Source: Flavobacteriales bacterium UBA1494 (lineage in GTDB: Bacteria; Bacteroidota; Bacteroidia; Flavobacteriales_E; Vicingaceae). From it: a stretch of DNA of 64,000 nucleotides. This document shows, in pieces, positions 8,072 to 56,701 of the stretch. The notes beneath the pieces were generated by a model, which searched no databases, had not been told where the DNA came from, and worked only from the letters and a program-made list of their open reading frames with translations. Position 1 is the stretch's first letter. Every line of letters starts with the position of its first letter. A program made the position numbers and the translations under genes. The stretch is taken from NCBI GenBank assembly GCA_905182175.1, contig CAJJAT010000027.1, forward strand, positions 1-64,000, given 5' to 3'.

Positions 8072-9333
8072 TTATATCCTAACCCCAATTATGCAGACAT
8101 CATCAATCTGTTTTTCATCACCTTTCCAATTGGCAAAGGCTCCTTTCAATTTTTGATCTTGTTCCTTCATCGGCAAGTGACAAATAGACAAGACATACTC
8201 CCTTAAATTTTTCATCATAAACCTTTTACCTTTTGGTCCACCAAACTGATCCTGAAATCCGTCTGTTAACGTGTAGATCAAATCTCCTTTTTTAGTTTCA
8301 AACTCTCCTCCTAAAAATGGAAGATAGTCATTCCTATGTTTTCCAACTGGCATTTTCTCAGGTGAGATGACCGTCATCTCACCCTCCCTTACGATCCAAA
8401 TAGGATTTTGAGCTAAGGTGTAGGTGATTTTATTATTTTCAAAATCAAAGCAAACAATGGAAGCACCCATTCCATCTCTGCCGCCCTCAGAGCTGCCGTC
8501 TTTTTTCAGTCATTCAACAATTGTTTTACGACAATCGTTAAAGATCACAGCTGGATTGCACAACTTGTCTTTGAAAGCAGATTCAATTGAGGTGATGTTT
8601 AGTATGCTCATAATAGCACCTGAGACTCCATGTCCTGTGCTATCCCTATTGACCATTGCAAAATTACCGTTATTGAGTTCTCCTGCCCAATAAAAATAAC
8701 CACTTACAATATCTTGGGGTTGAAATAATACGAAGTAATCTTTTAAATTTTGATCCAATAGAGCCTTAGTTGCTAAAAAACTACGTTGTATTCGCTCTGC
8801 ATAAATAATGCTATCTGTAATTTCTTCATGCGATTCTTGAACAATATCTTTTTGCTTAGAGATTTCCTAGTTTTTTAACAATAAATCTTTCGTTGCTGAC
8901 CCAACCTCTTTTTCCTGTTTGTTTTGTGTTTCCTTCAATTTTCTTGTACGCCATCCAACTATCCATACAACTAATGCAATAGCCATTATACCAAAAGCAA
9001 ATCGAGCCCACCACGTGTGCCACCAGGGCGGGTAGATTGTGAATTCATATAAAAATGGTTCGCTCCATTCACCGCTTTCTCCAATGGCCCGAATTTTAAA
9101 AACAAAATCTCCATAAGGCAGATTACGAAGATCTGCTTTTGATTCAAAATTAGGCGGGCTCCAAGATTTATTTAGGCCTTGTAATAAATAACTAAATAGC
9201 CTCCTCTAGGATTGGCTTTAATACTTTGAGCTTGCGAAAATATTGGCAGTTGAATTTCCTGGTCTTGCTTGTTGTTTCTAAATGCCAATAAAAACAAAAT
9301 AGGAAAAAGACAGTGTAGTTTGACCTTCTCCAT
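8072..9333 (-). pseudogene. Relic of a sensor with Y_Y_Y domain, membrane helix and SpoIIE/PP2C phosphatase domain
   Basis: Read on the minus strand, the segments line up as one former protein. From ATG 9333 come a signal-like start MEKVKLHCLFPILFLL and a short tail that ends at TAA 9172-9174. In another frame follow a Y_Y_Y domain end (RNLPYGDFVFKIRAIGESGEW), PPWWHTWWARF plus a membrane helix, a coiled coil, and a SpoIIE-type phosphatase domain ending DDVCIIGVRI. In-frame stops occur at TAG 8867-8869 and TGA 8510-8512. The metal-binding aspartate of the VSGDFYW motif has become Tyr (VSGYFYW). The beta-propeller that normally precedes Y_Y_Y is missing, consistent with a large internal deletion near 9190. 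It is a dead gene. Confidence 0.85.
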
Positions 9334-53853: not shown

Positions 53854-54249
53854 TTATTCTTTCAGATGATTCGAAACTATTAAATTAACCTGAGCCATAG
53901 ACAAGGGCTTAACAAAATAACTTATGACAAAAGGATACTTTTCAATCCGCCTAGTATCCTCCGGATTCATGGAAGTGCTAAGTAATATAATCTTTAATGA
54001 ACCTTGAAAATTAAACTCAGCACTGTCTAAGTGTTCTAAAACCTCAAGACCATCTAAAACGGGCATTTTCAAATCTAGTATTACTAAGTCGGGTAAGAGC
54101 GAATGGTCGGGATGTTCTAAAATAGCGAGGGCCTCTTTTCCGTTTCGTGCAACTACAATCTCTAAATCACTAGAACACTTTCTAAAGAAATAGCTATTCA
54201 TCACATTGATAGCCTCGCTATCGTCCACTAATAAAACCTTCTTAGTCAA
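53854..54249 (-). CDS. Single-domain response regulator 2
   Basis: The 131-residue receiver domain has the acidic pair D9-D10, phosphoacceptor D59 in LVILDLKMPVLDG, a T/S in LLSTSMNPED, and the lysine in YFVKPLSM. It lacks an output domain. It overlaps the frameshifted receiver gene by eight bases. Transcribed with the histidine kinase, it probably acts through protein contacts or phosphotransfer. Confidence 0.9.
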   Translation of the reverse strand: MTKKVLLVDDSEAINVMNSYFFRKCSSDLEIVVARNGKEALAILEHPDHSLLPDLVILDLKMPVLDGLEVLEHLDSAEFNFQGSLKIILLSTSMNPEDTRRIEKYPFVISYFVKPLSMAQVNLIVSNHLKE

Positions 54250-54662
54250 AATACACTTGCATTAAATTGATAATACCTTCTTTATTCATAGGCTTTTTAA
54301 TTTGCTCCACTACTCCAATAGGTTTATACTTCTTACTCTTCTCCAAATCATCTTCGTCTAAAAAGTCACTTAAAATAAATACAACTATTTGCTGATTATT
54401 GGTTATCTCTTTTGACAGTTTTGCATATTCATCCAAGAACATAAAACCGTCCATTTGAGGCATCGCTATGTCTAATAATATTAAATCAGGTTTAGGTAAA
54501 CGGCCTTCTGTATCTTTCCCTCTTAAAAACTCAAGTGCTGCTTCAGCATTACTTTTAACAACAATGTGCTCTGCTATTCCCATCTCTTTTAATAATACTC
54601 TATTGTACTGGTTTGATGAATTACTGTCATCAATTAAAAGAATAGTTTCTAATTTTTTTCAT
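54242..54662 (-). CDS. Single-domain response regulator 1, frameshifted in an A7 tract
   Basis: The receiver core with phosphoacceptor Asp in LILLDIAMPQMDG is in one frame, but its start is missing. ATG 54662 is followed by seven A's (54653-54659) and reads KKIRNYSFN to a stop. With six A's the frame gives MKKLETILLIDDSNSSNQYN, the normal start with the acidic Asp pair. So either the gene is broken by one inserted A, the sequence has an error, or the ribosome/polymerase slips on A7. The lysine IKKPM is present. An internal Met at 54583 would lack the beta-1 strand and acid pair. The histidine kinase ends 17 bases upstream. Confidence 0.7.
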
Positions 54663-54679: not shown

Positions 54680-56701
54680 CTAAAATACGATTTTAAACGT
54701 CGTACCAACTCCGATAGTACTTTCAACACTTATCTTACCTCCGATGTTTTCAATCATTTTAGATGAGAGGTACAATCCTATGCCACTGCCTTCAACATGG
54801 TCGTGCAGTCGATGAAACATTTTAAAAAGCTTTCCCTTACTTTTCTCCATATCTATTCCTAAGCCGTTATCCGTAACTAGAATCTCTGTTTTAGATTTAT
54901 TTTTTGAAATAGATATATCAATACTTACATTTTGATTGTGTTTGCGATATTTTACTGCATTTTCAATTAAGTTTAATAAAACAGTTTCTAAATACAATTT
55001 ATTTGTCTCTACTTTTAACTCACCGTCCATCCGAATTGTAAATCGTTCTATATGCTTGTCATAGTTCTGCAGGATATTGTCTTTTAGCCTCTTTAACAGT
55101 TTAAAAATATCTACAGTAGTAAAATTCTTTCCGTGCCCTATTTTCAATCTAGCAATACTAATGATACTTTCAATTTTTGATTCCGCATTCTCAATAGAAT
55201 CTCTAATCCAGAGCAATGATTTACCGACTGTGAGATTAGAATTTCCTACTTCGTTTTCAATAATTTCTACATGGCCTTTTATTGCAGCTAAAGGGGATCT
55301 TAAATCATGTGTAGCGATGTATGTGAACTCTTCTAATTCGGCATTTACCGAATTCAGGTCAGCATTTAACTTTTTAATCGTTTCTTGTCGCTCTAAAACT
55401 TCATCAAATGCAATTTTATCTCTTGTAATGTCTTGAAAAACACCAAATAGCTTTGTAACTTTTCCATCCTCCTCATACGGCTTGCCGGTTGCTCTTACCC
55501 ATCTATGTTTTTTTGTAGCTGTCAAAATTCCCAACTTAACATCCCAGCGTTTCTTTTCGGCTATTGCTTGCTGAATTACTTCTTTAATGATCGGTTTAGA
55601 CTCTTCATCGTAAAAATTTATTGCTCCTTCTAAAGTGGGAACATAATCTTCAGCAACTTCATGAATCTCTTTTGTTTTTTGCGACCAAAAAACAGTACAT
55701 TTCCCTAAGTCGACCACCCAATGACCTAAATTTGCTAAATCTTGCGCTTGCAAAAGCAAATCCTCTCCTTTATTTAATTCAAACTCTTTCTCTTTTTGTT
55801 CGGAAATATCAGAAGCTACTAATATGACTCCTTTGATCTCTTTATTCTCACCCAATAAGGGTTTTGCATCGAAACTATAATATTTCCCTTCTCCCGTTTT
55901 TCTATTTTTTATATAAGCTTGCATTCCCAGCACAACTTCTCCTCGCATCGATCGTCCAGCAGGCATTTCTCCTTGCTTAATCTGAGTTTTACCATCAACG
56001 TGAAATGTTTCAAATTTTTCATACAAATCTCCTAACCCACTAATTTTAGACTTCACATCCCCTATCATGATCTTAGCACTGTCATTTATCAATAAAAATT
56101 TATTCTCTTTGTTCAAAGCAATTACACCTTGTGGTATAGCAGATAATATAGTGTGAAGCAATCTATATTTTGTCGCTACTTCTTCGTTAAACTCCTCCTG
56201 TTTTATAAGCTGTCGTTGAAGCTCCATGTGGTGCATAATTTGACGAGATAATGCTGCAAGAGATTTCTTTTGAGAATTCGATAGTTTCTTTGGTTTTGTA
56301 TCAATAACACATAAAGTTCCCAGAGAAAACCCTTCGGAATTAACAAGAGGTATTCCTGCATAAAACTTAAAACCTAGATCATTTATAACCAATGGATTGT
56401 CAAAAAAACGATCATCTTCAGATGCACTTTGAATCTCAAAAATTTCCTGTTGATTGTTAATTGCATGTCCACAAAAGGAAATATCTCTACTTGTTTCGTT
56501 TACTTCCAAACCTACCTTTGATTTAAACCACTGCCGGTCTGTATCAATTAAAGAGACCAATGCAATTGGAGTGTCACAAATTTGTGATGCAAGAAAAGTT
56601 AGATCATCGTATGCATCACTGGGTAGTGTATCTAAAATTTGATATTCTTTAAGTGAGTTAAGCCGTTCCTTTTCATTAATAGGGATAGGAGGAGAAGTCA
56701 T
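54680..56701 (-). CDS. Soluble GAF-PAS histidine kinase
   Basis: The 673-residue protein starts with a GAF domain (about 20-160; WFKSKVGLEVNETSRDISFCGHAI), followed by PAS domains at about 175-300 and 315-430 (TLSAIPQGVIALNKEN; FGVFQDITRDK). A HisKA dimerisation helix has H465 in YIATHDLRSPLAA, and a HATPase has N-box NLIENAVKYR, G1 DNGLGIDMEKSK, and GSGIGLYLSSKMIENIGG. No membrane helix is seen, so it senses a cytosolic signal. The two receiver genes downstream complete a phosphorelay. The GAF signal is unknown. Confidence 0.93.
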   Translation of the reverse strand: MTSPPIPINEKERLNSLKEYQILDTLPSDAYDDLTFLASQICDTPIALVSLIDTDRQWFKSKVGLEVNETSRDISFCGHAINNQQEIFEIQSASEDDRFFDNPLVINDLGFKFYAGIPLVNSEGFSLGTLCVIDTKPKKLSNSQKKSLAALSRQIMHHMELQRQLIKQEEFNEEVATKYRLLHTILSAIPQGVIALNKENKFLLINDSAKIMIGDVKSKISGLGDLYEKFETFHVDGKTQIKQGEMPAGRSMRGEVVLGMQAYIKNRKTGEGKYYSFDAKPLLGENKEIKGVILVASDISEQKEKEFELNKGEDLLLQAQDLANLGHWVVDLGKCTVFWSQKTKEIHEVAEDYVPTLEGAINFYDEESKPIIKEVIQQAIAEKKRWDVKLGILTATKKHRWVRATGKPYEEDGKVTKLFGVFQDITRDKIAFDEVLERQETIKKLNADLNSVNAELEEFTYIATHDLRSPLAAIKGHVEIIENEVGNSNLTVGKSLLWIRDSIENAESKIESIISIARLKIGHGKNFTTVDIFKLLKRLKDNILQNYDKHIERFTIRMDGELKVETNKLYLETVLLNLIENAVKYRKHNQNVSIDISISKNKSKTEILVTDNGLGIDMEKSKGKLFKMFHRLHDHVEGSGIGLYLSSKMIENIGGKISVESTIGVGTTFKIVF

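Follow-up and report, generated by a model that had tools for sequence, protein, structure and literature searches.

A one-base longer A-run after the start codon has probably silenced a CheY-like receiver gene of Flavobacteriales bacterium UBA1494

Results and Discussion

A receiver gene (REC1) of Flavobacteriales bacterium UBA1494 was analyzed in the window, which is the whole 64,000-nucleotide stretch of contig CAJJAT010000027.1. REC1 was probably silenced by the recent growth of an A-run by one base, which would make it a silent allele or early pseudogene, not a programmed recoding site. REC1 would be an ordinary CheY-like response regulator gene, the second in a kinase-REC1-REC2 operon. 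Replication slippage would have lengthened the A-run after its start codon by one base, and the actual DNA, judged from the assembly, would carry seven A's. Translation from the ATG would then end after 10 codons and full-length REC1 would not be made, and the output of REC2 may drop through lost translational coupling. The run may revert, at the low rate expected for a tract of this kind.

Operon Structure and Reading Frames

The following features of the operon were found.

54680..56701, - strand: sensor histidine kinase, 673 aa, GAF-PAS-PAS-HisKA-HATPase_c, intact
54653..54659, - strand: A7 run directly after the ATG, with a one-base length difference from relatives
54630..54662, - strand: short ATG frame, 10 codons (MKKIRNYSFN) and then TGA, read directly
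54242..54658, - strand: REC1 open frame, 138 aa, Response_reg, +1 to the ATG, stop at 54242
54242..54583, - strand: longest stretch of REC1 that an ordinary start codon opens (ATG 54583), 113 aa, missing the first strand as well as the acidic pair
53854..54249, - strand: REC2, intact single-domain receiver with a TTG start

The - strand was read directly as ...ACAT, ATG (54662-54660), A7 (54659-54653), and then TTAGAAACT...; the sequence of this strand directly 3' of the A7 run (54659-54653) is TTAGAAACTATTCTTTTAATTGATGACAGT. The ATG frame closed after 10 codons, and REC1 cannot be translated whole from its start codon. The receiver frame was +1 relative to ATG 54662 and was closed on its upstream side by a TGA overlapping the ATG. 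Its open-frame translation (138 aa) begins KKLETILLIDDS..., and the first ATG, GTG or TTG in this frame was ATG 54583, 25 codons in and past the acidic pair. As in genes that vary in phase by slipped-strand mispairing, a repeat run (A7, 54653-54659) lay at the frame break. The first-pass annotation had described ATG 54662 as followed by seven A's and the receiver frame as needing one A fewer; both statements agreed with the direct reading of the - strand. Its claim of an intact kinase and an intact second receiver was likewise borne out, as both frames were open and their domains were matched by Pfam.

The two receiver genes share 8 bases (54242-54249, - strand), with the start of REC2 inside the end of REC1. 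The position of the REC2 TTG inside the last REC1 codons suggests that the two genes may be translationally coupled. A TTG at the REC2 start position was also readable in two genomes of the same genus, G004 and G002, and in G002 an ATG follows closely behind. Readthrough from the kinase into REC1 to give a fused product was rejected, since the kinase ends in TAG and, in the orthologs, a short gap separates the two genes.

Receiver Domain of REC1

In the Pfam profile search, REC1 matched Response_reg (PF00072) with an E value of 5.9e-13 and a score of 49.4 bits, above the cut-off of 30.2. The match covered the whole domain (profile positions 1-109 of 111). The canonical residues D10, D11, D63, S97, and K122 were all present, and the Lys-Pro was kept. 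We take D10 and D11 to be the acidic pair, D63 the phosphoacceptor Asp, S97 the Ser/Thr, and K122 the Lys of the active site. The alignment showed that the active-site residues were kept in both orthologs, G004 and G002. At this base composition, the chance of one stop-free frame of 138 codons was about 4.5e-5; the REC1 reading frame is therefore real. REC1 had the domain, the active-site residues, and the kinase operon in common with single-domain CheY-like response regulators (PF00072). Unlike these, its open frame was without its start codon.

Comparison with Relatives

The receiver search covered 41 genomes (the own genome and 40 relatives), 38 of which had some receiver match. Clear REC1 orthologs were found in G004 and G002, with about 59-60% identity, and were also found as Flavobacteriales MAG records. 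The gene order kinase, REC1, REC2 was common to the window, G004, and G002. The G004 ortholog starts in frame with ATG GAA AAA TTT and has a shorter A-run than the window. The G002 ortholog starts in frame with ATG AAA AAA TTC (A6), and the window has one A more.

Eighteen relative loci (L003-L020) with 20 receiver matches were compared; a match had to begin at query residue 8 or earlier and reach at least residue 110, a filter that left out, among others, the REC2 match of G004. An in-frame ATG, GTG or TTG was within reach in 20 of the 20 matches, and no frame break at this place was found in the 18 loci. The ATG-A7 of a more distant relative (L007) is read in frame 0. REC1 belonged neither to a conserved frameshift site nor to a cluster of five or more, which is what GeneTack looks for. 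Its frame break occurred in one genome and was confirmed by homology and Pfam, in the manner of a singleton indel or error.

The main rival explanation is a sequencing, assembly or consensus error, with the true run in frame and REC1 an ordinary working gene. This is possible but somewhat unlikely. The assembly has 45 contigs and is 96% complete, the relatives are in frame at this gene, and REC1 keeps all active-site residues and its coding character, all of which agree with an error. In the GeneTack text as excerpted, singleton frameshifts confirmed by homology are errors or indels, and those in homopolymers are expected to be mostly error (PMC3711429). The REC1 break, confirmed by homology and Pfam and absent from relatives, resembled such singletons, and no difference from the excerpted description was evident (PMC3711429). 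The full coding character of REC1 counts against silencing.

Sequence Changes in REC1 and REC2

The amino acid identity of REC1 was 0.593 between the window and G004, 0.585 between the window and G002, and 0.807 between G004 and G002. The corresponding values for REC2 were 0.613, 0.589, and 0.742. The third-position share of the changes on the window branch was equal in the two genes (29/67 in REC1 and 28/66 in REC2). On the window branch, amino acid changes were weakly in excess in REC1 (34 against 9) relative to REC2 (27 against 19), with a Fisher p of 0.043; against REC2 plus the kinase, the p value of the same excess was 0.065. This weak excess was the sole hint of REC1 relaxation; it gives no date and would fit a recent break. 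Because the frame is stop-free, the active site is kept, and the codon-position pattern is like that of the neighbours, the change would be a recent one.

Census of A-Runs in the Own Genome

The own genome (G000) has 104 sites at which an ATG directly precedes a run of exactly seven A's, and the census covered the 100 of these that were listed. Frame-0 starts of coding-like frames accounted for 55 of the 100 sites. Another 6 were in frame 0 and perhaps internal, which puts the frame-0 total at 55 to 61. Sites inside a gene in another frame (18/100) and sites without a coding-like frame (19/100) were uninformative either way. The remaining 2 looked shifted: one is REC1 in the window, the other a weak case of 51 codons. 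Among the 100 of 104 ATG-A7 sites, REC1 was the only convincing gene start needing a shift.

The weak case (L184, G000:C29:41999-44099) has its ATG-A7 site at base 601 of the - strand and a coding-like +1 frame of 51 codons with a score of 9. It was judged too weak to count as a second slip candidate.

Runs of at least eight A's directly after an ATG were found at 27 sites in the own genome, and a coding-like shifted frame began at none of the 27. In the window, 28 runs of A or T of 7 or 8 bases lay inside intact coding-like ORFs. The two censuses and the window runs gave no indication of a slip system across the genome or of an assembly riddled with homopolymer errors. General homopolymer trouble was not seen in these data, and the otherwise sound homopolymers (28 intact runs in the window, 55 to 61 in-frame ATG-A7 sites, and no off-frame ATG-A8+ site) argue against a sequencing or assembly error at REC1.

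Slippage at the A7 Run

The first-pass annotation had left mutation, error or programmed slippage as the choices. The first two fit the present results. The third, in which REC1 output would be governed by programmed slippage at the A7 run, was rejected on non-conservation, census, slip direction, run length, and RNA fold, and is extremely improbable. All that speaks for it is the A7 run itself and the intact receiver frame. The A7 run was not conserved in the orthologs G004 and G002, and no comparable second case was found in the own genome among 100 of 104 ATG-A7 sites and 27 ATG-A8+ sites. The RNA structure downstream of the run was ordinary (z -0.85; 37 of 200 shuffled sequences were as stable). 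The slip direction was also wrong. The receiver comes in frame if the run loses one A or gains two. In the easy directions, a -1 slip of the ribosome or one added A, the sequence reads AAT TAG, an immediate stop.

According to the excerpted survey in PMC1088944, selection against slippage-prone runs is evident at nine bases in many genomes and varies among bacteria. The REC1 run of seven is below this usual length of about nine (PMC1088944). Among the transcriptional slippage genes in that excerpt, Thermus dnaX, mxiE, and IS elements resemble REC1 in that another frame follows the A-run. The survey concerned runs of nine with conservation in homologs, whereas the REC1 run is seven, is not conserved, and meets a stop in the easy directions (PMC1088944).

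Some full or nearly full receiver may yet be made from DNA with seven A's, by low-level unprogrammed slippage or from an ATT start. An in-frame ATT (54643) lies just before the LIDDS strand, with no stop before the receiver, and would give nearly the whole domain; the REC1 relaxation was also small. ATT start codons are rare. The slip needed would be the loss of one A or the gain of two, and one-A insertion or a -1 ribosome slip leads to a stop at once. In the excerpt of PMC5574713, slippage measured during transcription of A/T runs mainly inserts bases in both E. coli and Buchnera; in E. coli, transcription seldom deletes bases from a run. This explanation is therefore unlikely, and silencing of REC1 by the longer run is preferred.

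Decayed Signalling Genes in the Same Genome

Two further signalling loci of the genome were broken.

L195 1-2593 (G000:C3:166500-169092), also L224: paralogous kinase-REC1-REC2-Hpt cassette
Window 8072-9205, - strand: Y_Y_Y sensor / SpoIIE-type phosphatase gene, broken, in-frame TAG at 8869 and TGA at 8512

The kinase frame of the C3 cassette had three internal stops (TAG, TAA, and TAA). Its REC1-like gene matched the intact C15 paralog through three frames, and its phosphoacceptor position is Val, in contrast to Asp in the paralogs. The second receiver and the following Hpt gene were intact. In its kinase and first receiver, the C3 cassette is a real pseudogene. The Y_Y_Y/SpoIIE gene of the window is a clear pseudogene. 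The breaks in these two loci are not homopolymer errors, and the presence of real signalling pseudogenes in the same genome speaks against an error at REC1. Signalling genes are being lost in this lineage, and the break in REC1 looks like an early instance of this decay. The break would also point to ongoing loss of kinase-receiver cassettes in the lineage.

A slow, reversible switch, in which the present REC1 A-run is one state and cells with the other run length make the receiver, is very unlikely. If this were true, the ratio of the two receivers competing for one kinase would also change, through the REC2 start in REC1, and run length would bring about a bet-hedging rewiring of a two-component system.

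Known Precedents

The excerpted text of PMC2831843 reports that bacterial genes over-represent poly-A runs of three to seven bases and that runs of five to eight bases are nearer the 5' ends of genes, where there is an excess of runs of up to 7-8 bases. It also gives measured A6 to A7 insertions in 5' poly-A runs, and one-base changes in such runs that silence inlA of Listeria monocytogenes and p78 of Mycoplasma fermentans (an A7 tract). REC1 resembled inlA and p78 in a one-base change of a short 5' A-run that abolishes the protein. It differed from them, as the excerpt describes them (PMC2831843), in that these are surface or virulence genes, whereas REC1 is a CheY-like receiver with the change in one genome. 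The REC1 frame break is an already known kind of event. Frame breaks in short 5' A-runs are both a common silencing route and a common artefact, and the break has little significance in itself. It provides a small clean example of a start codon, an A-run, and a next-frame domain judged by relatives and by a census of the motif in the same genome.

An ATG with seven or more A's directly behind it occurred 131 times in the own genome against 64 times in the reversed control, which is about twice as frequent. The excess plausibly comes from lysine AAA codons after the start.
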